A stretch of DNA of 53,074 nt from Anaerolineales bacterium (GTDB taxonomy: Bacteria > Chloroflexota > Anaerolineae > Anaerolineales > UBA4823). Made by a program: the position numbers and the translations under genes. Under the pieces are notes generated by a model. That model made no database searches. It was not told where the DNA came from and worked only from the letters and a program-made list of their open reading frames with translations. Position 1 is the first letter of the stretch; each line of letters starts with the position of its first letter. The stretch spans positions 2,875,400 to 2,928,473 of the forward strand of contig CP070639.1 of NCBI GenBank assembly GCA_020354045.1, given 5' to 3'. This document shows positions 4,851 to 13,295 of the stretch, one piece after another.

Positions 4851-5243
4851 ATGAAAGCATCTATACTTGCCCGCATATTCATCACTCTCTTCGTTTGCTT
4901 GCTTTTGGTCAACTGTCAGGCAGATGATCGCGCAGCTGCCAAAGTGGTGGAAAATTACTTCACAGCTTTAATCGCCAAAGATCCTCAACGCCTTTCAACG
5001 CTTTCCTGTTCTGACTGGGAAGCCAGTGCGCAGACTGACTTGGAATCTTTCGGCGCAGTATCTGCTGAGATATTCGATCTATCCTGTGATTCAACTGGTG
5101 AAGATGGAGAGTACACCCTGGTAACTTGCAAGGGTAAAATTGTAGCAAACTATGGAGATGAGATTCTAGAATTAAACTTATCAGACCAATCCTACCAGAC
5201 GCTTTACGAAGGGGGCGAATGGCGTATGTGCGGTTACCGATAA
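4851..5243 (+). CDS. Small predicted lipoprotein (NTF2/SnoaL-like size)
   Basis: A 130-aa protein. Residues 1-21 are a lipoprotein signal peptide with lipobox Leu-Val-Asn-Cys, the lipidated residue being Cys22. The mature part starts DDRAAAKVVENYFTALIAKDPQ, a pattern like the first helix of NTF2-like (DUF4878-type) lipoproteins, and has three further cysteines that might pair. I do not recognise a specific family. A GGAG ribosome site precedes the ATG. It ends 16 bp before the DltX-like microprotein gene and so is probably the first gene of the envelope acylation operon. It would sit on the outer face of the cytoplasmic membrane, where the acyl transfer is expected, but any role there is inferred from position alone. 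Confidence 0.75.
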   Translation: MKASILARIFITLFVCLLLVNCQADDRAAAKVVENYFTALIAKDPQRLSTLSCSDWEASAQTDLESFGAVSAEIFDLSCDSTGEDGEYTLVTCKGKIVANYGDEILELNLSDQSYQTLYEGGEWRMCGYR

Positions 5244-5259: not shown

Positions 5260-5379
5260 ATGAGAAGTAAATTATTCACACGCGAAAATTTTTGGGCGAT
5301 CATTCTTTGCATGCTCTTGATTGCACTGGTTATCCTGACTACAGATCAATCCCCTCAGTGGATTTACCAGGGATTTTAA
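5260..5379 (+). CDS. DltX-like one-helix microprotein with C-terminal acyl-shuttle hexapeptide
   Basis: A 39-codon reading frame (ATG 5260, TAA 5377-5379), short enough to be missed by standard gene callers. The N-terminus is positively charged (Lys4, Arg8). One hydrophobic helix covers about residues 12-28. The last six residues are Trp-Ile-Tyr-Gln-Gly-Phe, placing Tyr36 outside the membrane. In the Dlt pathway, DltX is a similar one-helix microprotein ending in an aromatic-Ile-Tyr-x-x-Phe hexapeptide; the MBOAT protein DltB loads the acyl group on that tyrosine, and DltD passes it to the polymer. Here the frame lies 49 bp upstream of an MBOAT gene, which is followed by a DltD-like gene. The ribosome site (TGGGG) is weak. 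Size, topology, ending and context all agree; expression is unproven. Confidence 0.8.
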   Translation: MRSKLFTRENFWAIILCMLLIALVILTTDQSPQWIYQGF

Positions 5380-5428: not shown

Positions 5429-6859
5429 ATGACCCTTCAGCACATCCTGTACTTCACTGTATTCACGATTGTCATATCCAGATTATCACATGGGCTATTT
5501 CGGCATTACCTGCTCTTAACCGGCAGTTTATTCGCTGTTTTTTGGTTACAACCTGCATCTTCCATCCGTAATCTGGATTTTTGGCTGCCCGTTGTTTCAA
5601 TTGGTATGGTCGTGATCATATGGATCCTCACCCAACCCAAAAATCCAGACCGAAAACATAAGCTCCGATTAGAAATACTGATCATCTCAGGTGTCGTGAC
5701 ATTCATTGGCGCCACCCGCTATTTTGGGAACCTGTGCTGTTTAACGGCTACCCGTCCGCCTCCAATCATTCAAATAATCATCGTTCTTACGATCCTTGGG
5801 TGTTTTGGCTTGTTACTACAGCATTTTTCTCAAATCCAGAAAAGCCTGCTCTGGTTGGCAGGTATATTGATTATTGTTATATTTATTCTTTTGAAGTACG
5901 ATATCTATGCATTGCACTTAAGCCAATTTCTGCGAAATTGGATGGGGCAAGACCCCTCACTTGCAACCACCTCGGACCTGCCCTGGTTGGGCTACTCCTA
6001 TCTTGCATTCCGCCTGCTCCACACCATTCGGGATGCTCAGGGGAAGAAGCTTCCTGACTACTCTTTAGGTGAATTTACAACCTATGCATTGTTCTTTCCT
6101 GCGCTTACTGCCGGTCCAATCGATCGTTCCGAACGTTTTATTCGCGATTATCGATCGCCTAGCCAGGAGACAAATAGGAACACCTGGATTGGTCTTCAAC
6201 GGGTCTTGGTGGGTCTGCTTAAGAAATTTGTCCTGGCAGACAGCCTGGCATTATTCGCGTTAAATTCACAAAATGCAAACCAGGTGGGCGCTCCCATCTG
6301 GATGTGGATAGTTTTATACACGTACAGCTTGCGGCTTTACCTTGATTTCTCAGGATATACCGACATTGCCCTGGGCCTTGGGGCAATTGTCGGTATCAAT
6401 TTGCCAGAAAATTTTAATGCTCCTTACTTTAGGACAAATTTAACAGCTTTCTGGAACAGCTGGCATATCACCTTGGCAAACTGGTTCCGGGCTTATCTAT
6501 TTAACCCTCTCACCCGTTTTTTACGGGGGGGTAATTTCAAACTACCCGTCTGGCCAATTGTGCTGGTGGGTCAAATTACGACCATGACCCTGATTGGTCT
6601 TTGGCATGGCATCACCTGGAATTTTTTCATATGGGGACTCTGGCATGCCCTTGGGTTGTTCGTTCATAACCGCTGGACAGAATGGCGTCGTAGGCGAATA
6701 ATAAATATCGAAATTCACCCCTGGAAGCAGAAATACATCAGCTTCTTCAGTTGGTTAATCACCTTCCACTATGTAACTTTGGGATGGGTTTGGTTTGCTT
6801 TACCAGGGACAGATATATCTGGCAGGGTTTTCAGCACATTATTCGGATTAGGCAGTTAG
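5429..6859 (+). CDS. MBOAT-family membrane O-acyltransferase (DltB/AlgI type)
   Basis: A 476-aa multi-pass membrane protein of the membrane-bound O-acyltransferase family. Family motifs are FWNSWHITLANWFRAYLFNP around His346 and GLWHG around His393, in a WHGITWNFFIWGLWHA context; His393 is the expected catalytic residue. PALTAGPIDRSERF near residue 225 is also typical of DltB/AlgI proteins. DltB members take an acyl group from an ACP thioester on the cytoplasmic side and move it to the outer face. The C-terminus (LFGLGS) lacks a Tyr hexapeptide, so the acyl-shuttle tyrosine must be supplied by another protein, which fits the microprotein just upstream. The start codon at 5429 has only a weak ribosome site (GGAT). 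The acyl group is unknown. Confidence 0.92.
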   Translation: MTLQHILYFTVFTIVISRLSHGLFRHYLLLTGSLFAVFWLQPASSIRNLDFWLPVVSIGMVVIIWILTQPKNPDRKHKLRLEILIISGVVTFIGATRYFGNLCCLTATRPPPIIQIIIVLTILGCFGLLLQHFSQIQKSLLWLAGILIIVIFILLKYDIYALHLSQFLRNWMGQDPSLATTSDLPWLGYSYLAFRLLHTIRDAQGKKLPDYSLGEFTTYALFFPALTAGPIDRSERFIRDYRSPSQETNRNTWIGLQRVLVGLLKKFVLADSLALFALNSQNANQVGAPIWMWIVLYTYSLRLYLDFSGYTDIALGLGAIVGINLPENFNAPYFRTNLTAFWNSWHITLANWFRAYLFNPLTRFLRGGNFKLPVWPIVLVGQITTMTLIGLWHGITWNFFIWGLWHALGLFVHNRWTEWRRRRIINIEIHPWKQKYISFFSWLITFHYVTLGWVWFALPGTDISGRVFSTLFGLGS

Positions 6860-6861
6860 TT

Positions 6862-8001
6862 ATGAGTCCTGTGAATGAAACTCAAAACCGCATTTCGTAT
6901 CCTAACCTATTGCTGAAAACTTTATCATTATTTATCTTGCTAAACATGTTGTTTGCCTGGATACAGCCTTTGCCTGCCTTAGGCAAGCTATCAGTCTATA
7001 ACAACCTGATACCTGGTCGCATTCGTCTACCCTATAGCGATGTACCACAGCGATCGTATAATCTGAGCCTTTATAACTTGGAAGCTATGTTTGCTTCCCA
7101 TGAGGTTTCTGCAGTTCCCCACAATAATGAATTCCGGGTTATGCTCATCGGTGATTCATCTACCTGGGGGTTTTTGCTGGAGCCGAACGAAACGCTCGCT
7201 GCCTATATTAACTCCAGAAATCTAATATTACCGGATGGACGAGTCGTAAAAGCCTACAATTTAGGCTATCCAGTCATGTCCCTTGTAAAAGATTTGTTGA
7301 TCCTGTCTTATGCCATGGAATATCAGCCAGACATGATTATCTGGCTATTCACATTGGAATCCTTTCCATACGACAAACAACTTTTTGCCCCTTTGCTCCA
7401 AAACAACGCTGTCAAAGTACGTGCCTTGGATAGCTCCTACGATCTAGACATTGATCCTTATGATTCAGCCCTCAATGATCAGGGGTTTTTAGATCGCACG
7501 ATCATCGGAGAACGCAGGGTTTTGGCAGATATAGTAAGATTGCAGTTATATGGGATTATGTGGGCGGCGACAGGTATTGACCAATTTATTCCAGCAAACT
7601 ACACGGAACGCCAGGTGGATCTATCCTCTGAACTGAGTTTCCATAATCTTCAACCTCCGCAGCTTAATAGAAATGATTTAGCCATTGATGCACTCCAAGC
7701 GGGTGTATCTATGTCCGGGGAAATCCCGATCTTATTCATTAATGAGCCTATTTTTATTAGCTGGGGAGTAAATAGCGATATCCGTTATAACTTCTATTAT
7801 CCGCGTTGGGTATATGATGACTATAGGGAATTACTGGCCTCGATAGCTCAAGAATACGGCTGGTCATATCACGATTATTGGGATTCTGTGCCTGCTGAGG
7901 AATTCACCAATACTGCCATACACCTCACACCAGCAGGTTCTGCCCAACTTGCAGATTTGATTTCAAGAGACATTCAAGGGCTTATCAGCGGTCTGCCATG
8001 A
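6862..8001 (+). CDS. DltD-like membrane-anchored SGNH acyl-transferase
   Basis: A 379-aa protein with one N-terminal membrane helix (about residues 15-35) and a large extracytoplasmic SGNH-fold domain. Block I is GDSSTWG with Ser99 as predicted nucleophile; block V is IHLTPAG with His354. The Asp normally three residues before this His is not obvious here (Thr, with Asn one residue earlier). The ATG at 6862, 2 bp after the MBOAT stop, is preferred over an upstream in-frame ATG at 6751 that would overlap the MBOAT gene by 109 bp. DltD/AlgJ-type partners accept the acyl group from the MBOAT system and esterify a cell-surface polymer. That is the role I infer from fold, topology and gene order. 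Overall sequence similarity to DltD proper is not apparent by eye. Confidence 0.8.
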   Translation: MSPVNETQNRISYPNLLLKTLSLFILLNMLFAWIQPLPALGKLSVYNNLIPGRIRLPYSDVPQRSYNLSLYNLEAMFASHEVSAVPHNNEFRVMLIGDSSTWGFLLEPNETLAAYINSRNLILPDGRVVKAYNLGYPVMSLVKDLLILSYAMEYQPDMIIWLFTLESFPYDKQLFAPLLQNNAVKVRALDSSYDLDIDPYDSALNDQGFLDRTIIGERRVLADIVRLQLYGIMWAATGIDQFIPANYTERQVDLSSELSFHNLQPPQLNRNDLAIDALQAGVSMSGEIPILFINEPIFISWGVNSDIRYNFYYPRWVYDDYRELLASIAQEYGWSYHDYWDSVPAEEFTNTAIHLTPAGSAQLADLISRDIQGLISGLP

Positions 8002-8042
8002 CATGGATGAGAGCAATGCGAATCGGATATAATCCCAGAATT

Positions 8043-9044
8043 ATGAAGCCAGTCCTTTTATGTCTCCACGTGATTGTATTGTTTGTCTTTACTATTGGCT
8101 GCACAGGGCAGGCTAGTCAAACCCTCGTTAGCAATACCCCCTCTGCAGCCTTATTACCATCCTCAACAGTACCAGTACCTACCATAACCATCCCTCCAAC
8201 AGACCCACCAATCACACAGACTGCACAGCAGACTTATGTTCAAGAATTTCCTACATCTCCAACCGCTACATCCATTGCAATCAAACCATCACCAACTTAT
8301 GATCCAAAAATCTGGTCAGGCCTGCCAGTCGTTCCAACGATTTCACCGCGAGTGAAAGAGATCTATGCGCGTGGACATGAACTGGGCAACACCCCAAATG
8401 CTTTTTCTAAGATTGGGGATTGTGGCAGTACTCCTGCCTGGTTTTTAGGCGATTATGACCGTGGTCCAAGATATTACAATCTAGGTGAGTATCAAGTTTT
8501 AAATAATGTCATTCAGGCATTTCAGGGATCATACGATCGTATCAGCCTGGCAGCCAAATCTGGATTCAACGCCTCATCAATCTTTTCACCGCTATGGTCC
8601 AACCGCGAGCTTTGCCAGCCGAACGAGTCACCCCTTGCCTGTGAATACCGTGTACACAAGCCCTCCTTCGCCTTCATTATGCTTGGCACAAACGATGTGT
8701 GGCACCAGGATTCTTTTGAACCTCAGATGCGGTTGATAATCGAGACCTCTATCGATCTAGGCATAGTTCCTATCTTGTCCACAAAAGCAGACAACCGGGA
8801 GGGTGACGGAAGCGTAAATGCCACCATCGCGCGTCTTGCAAATGAGTACCAAATGCCACTATGGAATTTCTGGGCTGCGGTTCAAGATTTGCCTGACCAG
8901 GGTCTTCAAGACGATGGCTCCCATCTCACCTGGGGTCCCAACCAGTTCAATGATCCCCAGGTTCTGGAAAAAGCATGGCCAGTGAGAAATTTAACCGCTC
9001 TGCAGGTGCTCAATAAAATCTGGAATTATGTATCTTCACCCTAG
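8043..9044 (+). CDS. SGNH-fold lipoprotein with Cys at the block I nucleophile position
   Basis: A 333-aa protein with a lipoprotein signal peptide (lipobox TIGC, Cys20) and a Pro/Thr/Ser-rich linker to about residue 95. The globular domain has SGNH landmarks: IGDCGS at block I, MLGTND at block III (Asn217) and DDGSHLT at block V (Asp291, His294). The nucleophile position is Cys127 rather than Ser, with Ser129 two residues on. The start at 8043 is chosen because it gives a clean signal peptide; an in-frame ATG at 7998 would add 15 non-signal residues and overlap the preceding gene. TATAAT at 8028-8033 lies 9 bp before this start and may be an internal promoter or chance. As a second SGNH protein in the operon it may be an acceptor-side transferase or an esterase that reverses the modification. 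Confidence 0.78.
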   Translation: MKPVLLCLHVIVLFVFTIGCTGQASQTLVSNTPSAALLPSSTVPVPTITIPPTDPPITQTAQQTYVQEFPTSPTATSIAIKPSPTYDPKIWSGLPVVPTISPRVKEIYARGHELGNTPNAFSKIGDCGSTPAWFLGDYDRGPRYYNLGEYQVLNNVIQAFQGSYDRISLAAKSGFNASSIFSPLWSNRELCQPNESPLACEYRVHKPSFAFIMLGTNDVWHQDSFEPQMRLIIETSIDLGIVPILSTKADNREGDGSVNATIARLANEYQMPLWNFWAAVQDLPDQGLQDDGSHLTWGPNQFNDPQVLEKAWPVRNLTALQVLNKIWNYVSSP

Positions 9045-9072: not shown

Positions 9073-9339
9073 ATGAGTATTTTAAATCCTATGAATAATC
9101 ACATCCTTTCCACACTTTCCGAATACATTACAACCGAGATATTAAAACAGCCCAACCGGTCACTTGCGCCTGACCAGCCTTTAATTTCGGGTGGTCTCAT
9201 TGACTCATTCAGCCTCGTTGATCTGGCATTGTTTATAGAAAATACCTTTGGTGTCCATATCGAGGACACCGAGCTGAATGCAGAAACATTCGATACGCTG
9301 CATGAGCTGTCTGAGATTATCCAAACCCGGCAATCATGA
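9073..9339 (+). CDS. Acyl carrier protein (DltC-like, stand-alone)
   Basis: An 88-aa acidic helical protein. LISGGLIDSFSLVDL carries the phosphopantetheine attachment serine, Ser45, in the usual D-S context, and the rest fits a carrier-protein four-helix bundle. Stand-alone carriers of this size beside an AMP ligase and an MBOAT gene are the DltC arrangement: the ligase loads the acyl group as a thioester and the MBOAT protein unloads it. The start at 9073 has a GGA stretch close upstream; an in-frame ATG at 9091 is an alternative with no visible ribosome site. The sequence is not the FabF-pathway ACP type (no DSLD-V motif), which favours a dedicated carrier. Confidence 0.9.
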   Translation: MSILNPMNNHILSTLSEYITTEILKQPNRSLAPDQPLISGGLIDSFSLVDLALFIENTFGVHIEDTELNAETFDTLHELSEIIQTRQS

Positions 9340-9406: not shown

Positions 9407-11095
9407 ATGGCTTCCAACCCAACAATATCTCATGTAGTCCATAATCTATATCAACAAGAGCCTGAAAGGATAGCCATTACGCTCTTGTTCAGTAACCAGC
9501 CGGATCAAAATATCACCTATCGAAGACTTATCGCTGGTGCAGCTGGCTACGCCAAAGCGCTCTCCCAGGCTGGAATAAGACCCGGAGAGGTGGTAATCCT
9601 GATTCTTCAACATGGGACAGAGCTGATTTATTCTTTTTTTGGGGCTATACTGCAGGGTGCCATCCCATCGATTATGCCTTTCCTGACCGAAAAGTTAGCA
9701 CCCGATGAGTACCGCCATTCCCTTGAAGCTTTGTTCGAGATAACAGCTCCAGCAGCTGTCATAACATATCCGGAATTTATCGAAGAAGTACGTGTAGCTG
9801 CCAAAGGGAAAAAATCAATTCGCGCAATTCTTGTCTCTAATGAAGTGACCTCAATCGCAGATAGCATGATCGCTGAATTTAACGGACAATATAGCTCTCC
9901 AAGGGATATTGTTCTACTCCAGCACTCTTCAGGTACAACCGGCTTACAGAAGGGAGTCGCTCTCTCCCATGAGGCTGTCTTCAACCAGCTTGAAAGTTAC
10001 TCCAAAGCCATACGGCTGAGTAAGTCTGATGTAATCGTCAGCTGGCTTCCGCTTTACCACGATATGGGCTTGGTTGCTGGTTTTCTCATGCCCATCCTCA
10101 CGCAGGTACGCTTGATTCTGCTTTCCCCATTTGATTGGGTGCGAGCACCTTTCAGGCTCATGTCTGCTATCTCCAAATATAAAGGCACACTAACCTGGCA
10201 ACCAAATTTCGCATACAATTTTTGCGCTCAAAAAATCCGTTCTCGCGATCTTGAAGGCGTGGATTTAACTAGCCTGCGGGCAGTCATCAATTGCTCGGAG
10301 CCGATGTATTGGGAAAGTCACCAGATGTATTTAGAAAGGTTTCAGCCTTATGGCTTGCGTGCAGACGCCTTGGCGACCAGTTATGCCATGGCAGAAAACG
10401 TATTTGGCGTTACTCAAGGAGGCATAGAAAAGCCAGTTACGATTGACCATGTTAACAGGCAGGCATTAAGTTCTCAAAGAGTCGCAAAATTATCTTTAGA
10501 AGGCGAAGACGCTCTTAAAATGCTTTCTGCGGGGTTCCCAATCGAGAACACCCAGCTGCGCATTATTGATTCAACTGGCATTGACTTACCAGAGCGTCAT
10601 ATCGGTGAGATCGCCATACAAAGTGATTGTATGCTCTCTGGTTATTACAATCGCCCAGATTTGACAAGCAGGGCTTTTCTGGATGGTTGGTACCTGACAG
10701 GTGATTTGGGTTATTTCGCGAATGGAGAACTTTATGTTACCGGTCGCAAGAAGGATTTGATCATTGTAGGAGGTAAGAATATCTACCCACAAGATCTGGA
10801 GAAGCTCGCCAGTGATGTTCCTGGTGTATATCCTGGTCGGGTGGTCGCTTTCGGAGTGTACAATCAGCTTTTGGGTACGGAGGAGGTTGTTTTAATTGCC
10901 GAAGCACAACCAATTGATACAGAGGCTCGGCACAAAATTGCAGATCAGATCCGAACACATGTGAACCGGGGTTCCGATATAGCTTTGCGGTATATCAAAA
11001 TTGTCGATCGCGCTTGGCTACTAAAAACCAGCAGTGGAAAAATTGCTCGCCAGGCAAATCGTGACAAATATCTACAGGAGGAGCGGCATGTATGA
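9407..11095 (+). CDS. Acyl-AMP ligase of the FAAL/acyl-CoA synthetase type
   Basis: A 562-aa adenylate-forming enzyme that would activate a carboxylic acid as acyl-AMP and pass it to the carrier protein encoded just upstream. The P-loop-like A3 motif SSGTTGLQKG starts at residue 174. SWLPLYHDMGLVAGFL follows, then TLTWQPNFAYNFCAQKI, YAMAEN, TGDLGY and GRKKDLIIVGGKNIYPQDLE, with the C-terminal catalytic lysine in TSSGKIAR. The LPLYHDMGL and PNFAY segments are FAAL/long-chain acyl ligase features, not those of D-alanine ligases (DltA). The ATG at 9407 is the only in-frame start before the conserved region; its nearest AGGA is distant. The gene ends inside the SDR start, indicating coupling. Substrate chain length cannot be judged. 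Confidence 0.88.
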   Translation: MASNPTISHVVHNLYQQEPERIAITLLFSNQPDQNITYRRLIAGAAGYAKALSQAGIRPGEVVILILQHGTELIYSFFGAILQGAIPSIMPFLTEKLAPDEYRHSLEALFEITAPAAVITYPEFIEEVRVAAKGKKSIRAILVSNEVTSIADSMIAEFNGQYSSPRDIVLLQHSSGTTGLQKGVALSHEAVFNQLESYSKAIRLSKSDVIVSWLPLYHDMGLVAGFLMPILTQVRLILLSPFDWVRAPFRLMSAISKYKGTLTWQPNFAYNFCAQKIRSRDLEGVDLTSLRAVINCSEPMYWESHQMYLERFQPYGLRADALATSYAMAENVFGVTQGGIEKPVTIDHVNRQALSSQRVAKLSLEGEDALKMLSAGFPIENTQLRIIDSTGIDLPERHIGEIAIQSDCMLSGYYNRPDLTSRAFLDGWYLTGDLGYFANGELYVTGRKKDLIIVGGKNIYPQDLEKLASDVPGVYPGRVVAFGVYNQLLGTEEVVLIAEAQPIDTEARHKIADQIRTHVNRGSDIALRYIKIVDRAWLLKTSSGKIARQANRDKYLQEERHV

Positions 11096-11804
11096 TTTCA
11101 CTAACCAGGTCGTAGTGATTACAGGAGCTGCTGGAAACTTAGGCTCTGCAACTGCTTGGATGTTTTATAAAGCAGGAGGAAAACTCGCTCTAGTAGATCG
11201 ATCAGAAGGCAGGTTGCAAAGGCAGTTTAAAGAGCTGGTGGCATCACAGAATTACTACTTTGCAGATCGTATTGATCTAACGAACCCAGAAAGTGTCTCC
11301 CGGATGGTTGCTGCACTTATACAGCACTTTGGAAAGATTGATGTGATCGTAAATACAGTTGGTGGGTTTCGTGGAGGTAAGCCAGTTCATGATACTCCGA
11401 TGGCTACCTGGGATTTCCTCATTGACTTGAATGCTCGGACAATCCTGAACGCCTGTCAGGCGATCATACCCCATATGATCCAACAAACTTATGGAAGGAT
11501 CATCAATGTTGCAGCTCGAAAGGGGCTAAAAGGAGATGCCAACCTTGGGGCATACAGTGCTTCCAAAGCTGCTGTGATCAGGTTAACAGAAAGCATGTCA
11601 GCTGAATTAAAGAAATACAACATCAACGCAAATTGCGTTATACCTGGCACAATTGACACACCTCAAAATCGTGAAGCCATGCCAGGGGCTGATTTTAATC
11701 GCTGGGTGTCACCAGAAAAAATAGCGGAGGTAATCATGTTCCTGGCTTCACCCGCTGCATCAGCCATAAACGGGGCAGCCATCCCAGTTTATGGATTAAG
11801 CTAA
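11088..11804 (+). CDS. Short-chain dehydrogenase/reductase, Ser-less active site
   Basis: A 238-aa Rossmann-fold SDR. The cofactor motif TGAAGNLG is near residue 12 and the catalytic YSASK near residue 149. At the position of the usual catalytic Ser the sequence reads INVAARKGLKG, so Ala replaces Ser. I recall an SDR subfamily sharing the NV-A-R-LKG and DTP-NR-MP-AD-W patterns, so this may be a family trait rather than a defect. GGAGGAG precedes the ATG at 11088, which overlaps the ligase stop by 8 bp. That makes it the last gene of the acylation operon. A plausible role is reduction of a keto or enoyl group on the acyl precursor, but this rests on position only. Confidence 0.85.
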   Translation: MYDFTNQVVVITGAAGNLGSATAWMFYKAGGKLALVDRSEGRLQRQFKELVASQNYYFADRIDLTNPESVSRMVAALIQHFGKIDVIVNTVGGFRGGKPVHDTPMATWDFLIDLNARTILNACQAIIPHMIQQTYGRIINVAARKGLKGDANLGAYSASKAAVIRLTESMSAELKKYNINANCVIPGTIDTPQNREAMPGADFNRWVSPEKIAEVIMFLASPAASAINGAAIPVYGLS

Positions 11805-13222: not shown

Positions 13223-13295
13223 GCCACCGTAGCTCAGTCGGCAGAGCGGGCGTTTCGTAAACGTCAGGTCAAGGGTTCGAATCCCTTCGGTGGCT
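13223..13295 (+). tRNA. tRNA-Thr, anticodon CGT
   Basis: A complete 73-nt cloverleaf. The acceptor stem GCCACCG (13223-13229) pairs with CGGTGGC (13288-13294), with discriminator T13295. The D stem is GCTC/GAGC, the anticodon stem GGCGT/ACGTC with loop TTCGTAA, and the T arm AAGGG-TTCGAAT-CCCTT. The loop gives anticodon CGT, reading ACG (Thr). CCA is not encoded. Confidence 0.97.

Follow-up and report, generated by a model that had tools for sequence, protein, structure and literature searches.

We describe a conserved gene of about 40 codons in Anaerolineae whose product, a microprotein with one membrane helix and the C-terminal hexapeptide WIYQGF, very probably shuttles acyl groups as a separate polypeptide in a Dlt-like MBOAT-SGNH system. 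This reading draws on sequence comparison and on analogy with Dlt. The microprotein occurs together with a single clade of MBOAT proteins that have no hexapeptide of their own, and the pathway appears to be Dlt-like with a fatty acid in place of D-alanine.

Background

In the Dlt pathway, DltB passes D-Ala from the carrier protein DltC to the tyrosine of the DltX hexapeptide, from which it is handed on to DltD (PMC12148441). PatA carries the same hexapeptide as a fused part of the MBOAT, and there the tyrosine is acetylated (PMC12148441). MBOAT-SGNH pathways besides Dlt have been stated to be without a carrier protein and without a microprotein like DltX (PMC12148441). In the literature searched, which comprised papers outside subscription, we found no description of a system such as the one reported here.

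Results

A 39-codon frame ending in a hexapeptide

The window, by which we mean the whole stretch of 53,074 nucleotides analysed, contains a frame with an ATG start and a TAA stop that reads MRSKLFTRENFWAIILCMLLIALVILTTDQSPQWIYQGF (Table 1). Its product has a single hydrophobic stretch, with a best 19-residue Kyte-Doolittle mean of 2.43 from residue 11. The N-terminus is positively charged, and across the family the net charge is +1.6 before the helix and -0.9 after it. The MBOAT gene follows after a gap of 49 bases, and its product ends in RVFSTLFGLGS. An earlier note on this DNA had described a 39-aa frame with one membrane helix and the C-terminus WIYQGF, directly before an MBOAT without a terminal hexapeptide, and on all of these points it was right. 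Its further remark that the frame is too short for ordinary gene calling holds in part, as such frames are not always missed: the annotation of Leptolinea sp. HRD-7 lists the homologue as a hypothetical protein of 47 aa (BCY19582.1). Comparison of the microprotein with Pfam, NCBIfam and the PDB gave no meaningful match.

Table 1. Features of the microprotein locus (window coordinates)
Feature	Position	Strand	Support
Small lipoprotein-like gene upstream of microprotein	4851..5243	+	
DltX-like microprotein, 39 aa, one membrane helix, predicted N-in/C-out by charge	5260..5379	+	Conserved in relatives
Codons of C-terminal hexapeptide WIYQGF (Tyr36 = 5365-5367)	5359..5376	+	Codon-position differences, 68 sequences
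DltB-like MBOAT, 476 aa, no C-terminal hexapeptide; His346 and His393 correspond to DltB His289 and His336	5429..6859	+	
SGNH1, N-terminal membrane helix and SGNH domain, GDSS block I (Ser99), invariant His354; DltD counterpart by position	6862..8001	+	
SGNH2, lipoprotein-like SGNH domain, GDC replacing GDS	7998..9044	+	
Acyl carrier protein, DSF phosphopantetheine site; DltC counterpart by position	9073..9339	+	
Fatty-acyl-AMP ligase (FAAL)-like adenylating enzyme, in the place of DltA	9407..11095	+	
Short-chain dehydrogenase (FabG-like)	11088..11804	+	

Taken alone, the window holds a hexapeptide-at-stop motif that is within chance: among its 4678 stops in six frames, about 0.44 occurrences of [FW]xYxxF directly before a stop are expected, and one was seen. 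The claim was therefore decided by comparison with relatives.

Conservation and selection among relatives

A search of 61 relatives recovered the MBOAT at ortholog level in 35 genomes, and all fetched loci whose upstream DNA was readable showed a short frame ending in WIYQGF. A scan of named genomes yielded 80 MBOAT loci, all from Chloroflexota and, where class or order was named, mostly from Anaerolineae. The microprotein lies no more than 260 bases upstream of the MBOAT match in 64 of the 75 assessable loci, 1.1-2.4 kb upstream in three (L082, L095 and L104) and elsewhere in the genome in seven; L074 is the sole assessable locus for which no microprotein was found. Other absences were due to masked N stretches (L033 (= L009) and L043) or to contig ends (L027, L028, L030, L084, L099, L111 and G021).

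The upstream frames encode 33-52 aa with a single helix. Their final six residues are exactly WIYQGF in 66 of 67 cases and WVYGGF in the remaining one, P-x precedes the tail throughout, and all three types of stop codon are in use. Among 68 sequences, pairwise differences within the hexapeptide were 0.010, 0.005 and 0.436 at codon positions 1, 2 and 3, respectively; Pro at -8 and the Trp, Tyr, Gly and Phe of the tail are invariant; and over the last 33 codons pN was below pS in every one of the 2278 pairs. Together, these patterns indicate strong purifying selection at the protein level. The 39-aa frame is thereby confirmed as genuine and coding. The earlier note had proposed looking for a conserved hexapeptide and purifying selection upstream of homologous MBOAT genes, and had held that its claim would fall if relatives carried no such frame at this position; this check was carried out and found the frame, its tail and the selection alike.

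Association with one MBOAT clade

Genomes were scanned for the coding pattern P-x-W-[IV]-Y-x-G-F-stop, with the reversed pattern as a control. The pattern was found in 33 of the 61 relatives and the reversed control in none. It was present in 32 of 35 MBOAT-bearing genomes versus 1 of 26 others (Fisher 9e-13), and this one genome (G021) is represented by a contig that breaks off within the beginning of the MBOAT. We then considered 400 genomes across the phylum, with membership of the MBOAT clade set at E below 1e-140. The pattern occurred in 33 of these, all belonging to the class of the window, and the reversed pattern gave a single match across the 400. By clade, the pattern was carried by 33 of 34 genomes with the MBOAT versus 0 of 366 without (Fisher 2e-47). 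In the 34th genome (G296), the microprotein immediately preceding the MBOAT ends in FIYQGF, a canonical FxYxxF, and counting this genome brings the association to 34 of 34. In this survey, the microprotein is thus exclusive to genomes with this clade.

Copy numbers of the two genes track each other, with two of each in G392, and two MBOATs alongside three microproteins in G387. In G404 and several named genomes, the microprotein stands apart from the MBOAT and is still intact, which argues that it is not a by-product of its neighbor gene.

Several other arrangements were observed. An intact microprotein directly precedes a hypB-like hydrogenase-accessory frame at three loci (L137, L138 and L139), and L157 is another locus with the microprotein away from the MBOAT. 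On a 212-kb plasmid of Leptolinea sp. HRD-7 (L112; AP024711.1, ~184139-185738), microprotein and MBOAT occur together with no SGNH, carrier or ligase gene downstream of the MBOAT. Three MBOAT genes are clustered at L132 (G047:C1:4226000-4245000), where two AlgI-type proteins end in their own FIYFQF and one member of the window clade is accompanied by a separate microprotein.

A tail-less MBOAT outside the DltB and AlgI/PatA groups

The MBOAT matches PF03062 at 74.8 bits (cut-off 27), and DltB is its top solved relative both by sequence and by fold (6bug, 8jem). It shares with DltB the His pair, the aromatic cluster and the absence of a C-terminal hexapeptide, and has about 70 additional residues at the N-terminus. 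Both histidines, His393 and His346, are invariant in the window clade. When residues are matched by alignment with DltB, all 12 positions of the aromatic cluster in the DltB funnel are aromatic or His in the window MBOAT; this cluster is the predicted binding place of the DltX tail (PMC11035591). All 23 window-clade members tested match the DltB model TIGR04091, to which the window MBOAT scores 221 bits, under the curated cut-off of 375. In a maximum-likelihood tree of 16 window-clade, 6 DltB and 19 AlgI/PatA-type sequences, each set formed one group (support 100/100, 100/100 and 100/96, respectively). The tree therefore places the window MBOAT in a third clade, belonging to neither DltB nor AlgI/PatA; since it is rooted at the midpoint only, it gives no order for the free and fused forms of the hexapeptide.

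No C-terminal hexapeptide was found on any MBOAT of the window clade. By contrast, AlgI/PatA-type proteins bear the hexapeptide on extra helices of the MBOAT itself, and their paralogues from the same genomes had a terminal copy in 17 of 17 cases (among them FIYGQF, FIYGSF, FLYVLF, FIYFQF, FVYQEF and FVYQGF, the last akin to the WIYQGF of the microprotein), as did 8 of 8 AlgI-type proteins from other phyla. None of the 17 fetched paralogues was accompanied by a neighboring microprotein of its own. Judging from these sequences, the two forms are complementary, with a separate microprotein occurring exactly where the MBOAT is without its own hexapeptide.

Operon partners

Partner genes were counted at 46 loci with enough flanking DNA. 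SGNH1 was present at 40 of these, SGNH2 at 22, and the carrier protein at 25, with the FAAL at the same 25; about half of the loci are without a nearby carrier protein or FAAL. A fold search with SGNH1 returned a clear SGNH fold with carbohydrate esterases ranking first, and DltD (3bma) followed at rank 38 with an E-value of 0.02. By fold, SGNH1 is thus an SGNH protein closer to carbohydrate esterases than to DltD, and its match to DltD is weak. The acid of the usual DxxH before the His is not conserved in SGNH1. The nucleophile position of SGNH2 reads GDC in 32 of 32 copies downstream in the operon, and SGNH2 homologues located upstream mostly have GDS (11 of 16); the GDC may reflect a cysteine acting as nucleophile or a domain put to another use.

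The best PDB matches of the ligase are the FAALs 3kxw (E 7.6e-67) and 3pbk (E 2.5e-66), over nearly its whole length, along with FadD32. Its top PDB hits thus comprise fatty-acyl-AMP ligases together with related enzymes that activate acyl groups, rather than DltA. The match to the NCBIfam family PRK09192 (349.9 bits) is under that family's cut-off of 600. Taken together, the PDB and NCBIfam matches mark the enzyme as FAAL-like, with a predicted activity on fatty acids. Known FAALs serve polyketide or lipid synthesis, and the operon enzyme differs from them in standing with an MBOAT-SGNH system.

The lipoprotein-like gene (130 aa) is conserved immediately before the microprotein gene in many relatives, and its product has no family match in Pfam or NCBIfam. 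At the other end, the relatives examined do not share the FabG-like dehydrogenase at this location. A tRNA-Thr (CGT) at 13223-13295 is the sole tRNA detected in the window.

Structure model

The microprotein and the MBOAT of the window are in different frames, and the AlphaFold model was built instead on a natural in-frame read-through of the two (L032), with Gly in place of the stop; 33 sequences of this kind were used. Most of the MBOAT was modeled with pLDDT above 90 and the transmembrane helix at ~76. The hexapeptide, whose tyrosine the earlier note had expected in the outer tunnel of the MBOAT, had a pLDDT below 50 and was not placed; the short read-through linker may keep the tail from the funnel.

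Discussion

The operon contains every Dlt counterpart, with a FAAL replacing DltA, which points to a Dlt-like relay with the microprotein as its shuttle. From Dlt, and from the chemistry of DltX and PatA, we infer four steps. The FAAL-like ligase would use ATP to activate a carboxylic acid, which is probably a fatty acid, and load it onto the carrier protein, which would then present the acyl group at the cytoplasmic face of the MBOAT. With the aid of His393 and His346, the MBOAT would transfer it to Tyr36 of the tail in the outer funnel. The acyl-tyrosine tail would in turn pass it to Ser99 of SGNH1 and thence to an acceptor in the envelope. A more specific proposal is that FAAL and carrier protein supply a fatty or hydroxy-fatty acyl group, which would travel through the MBOAT and the microprotein acyl-tyrosine to the SGNH protein, and that the cysteine-bearing SGNH2 helps to modify an envelope polymer or lipid; we give this proposal an even chance.

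The microprotein could instead be a subunit with a structural or assembly role in the MBOAT-SGNH complex, its tail docking in the funnel and its tyrosine never being acylated. Small single-helix subunits that merely stabilize membrane complexes are common, and conservation extends over the entire P-x-WIYQGF tail rather than to the tyrosine alone. We nonetheless consider such a role improbable: the tail is found exactly where the MBOAT has no copy of its own, its tyrosine is invariant in 68 of 68 sequences, and it fits the motif whose tyrosine is acylated in DltX and PatA (PMC12148441).

Resemblance to DltX also invites the reading that the microprotein is a true DltX within a true D-alanylation operon of Anaerolineae. 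DltX proteins (Bacillus thuringiensis, Niallia and Latilactobacillus) have 43-49 aa, one helix and a positive N-terminus, and the microprotein is alike. Their hexapeptides (FIYNEF, YIYNDF) place the key tyrosine three residues before the last Phe, as does WIYQGF, and the Tyr and last Phe of the FXYXXF type are present in all 68 microproteins. The gene order of microprotein, MBOAT, SGNH, carrier and adenylating enzyme is that of a dlt operon, and DltB is the best solved relative of the MBOAT. On the other hand, the first residue of the hexapeptide is Trp in the microprotein versus Phe or Tyr in DltX and AlgI/PatA, the microprotein gene precedes the MBOAT whereas the DltX gene precedes dltA, and the hosts of DltX belong to another bacterial class. 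Pfam DltX (PF12459, DUF3687) gave no match to 21 microprotein members or to the genome even at an E-value of 10, and hhalign against DltX, represented by only 2 sequences, gave a probability of 3% with only the last 15 residues aligned. The MBOAT, SGNH, carrier and ligase of a dlt operon are all present, but the ligase is FAAL-like rather than DltA-like and the MBOAT forms its own clade below the DltB cut-off. We reject true D-alanylation on the Pfam, MBOAT and ligase results and regard it as highly unlikely. The term DltX-type, under which the earlier note introduced the microprotein, is thus well supported as a description of the probable mode of action, through the conservation, the selection, the tie to one MBOAT clade and the missing tail of that MBOAT; as a statement of membership in the DltX family it is not supported.

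As a separate observation on dlt genes, a plasmid of Ligilactobacillus murinus (L113, 3468-4876) carries dltB directly after the gene for the bacteriocin bactofencin A, with no other dlt genes in the stretch read.

A chance or non-functional frame, conserved through DNA-level or overlapping constraints, would agree with the single within-chance motif in the window, but it is refuted to the point of a negligible probability by free variation at codon position 3 and not at positions 1 and 2, the use of three stop codons, the persistence of the frame away from the MBOAT and the co-occurrence with the MBOAT in the 400-genome survey.

These operons represent a class-wide system other than Dlt that has both a microprotein and a carrier protein, against the published statement on MBOAT-SGNH pathways (PMC12148441). 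The acyl-tyrosine hexapeptide thus behaves as a portable module, which occurs on its own beside two MBOAT clades and as part of the enzyme in a further one. The analysis also brings to light a conserved family of genes of about 40 codons, which annotation lists as hypothetical at best. The Anaerolineae, which are known largely from metagenomes, gain a concrete and testable candidate pathway for modification of the envelope, and a fatty-acyl counterpart of Dlt, if true, would constitute a third kind of transmembrane acylation machine.
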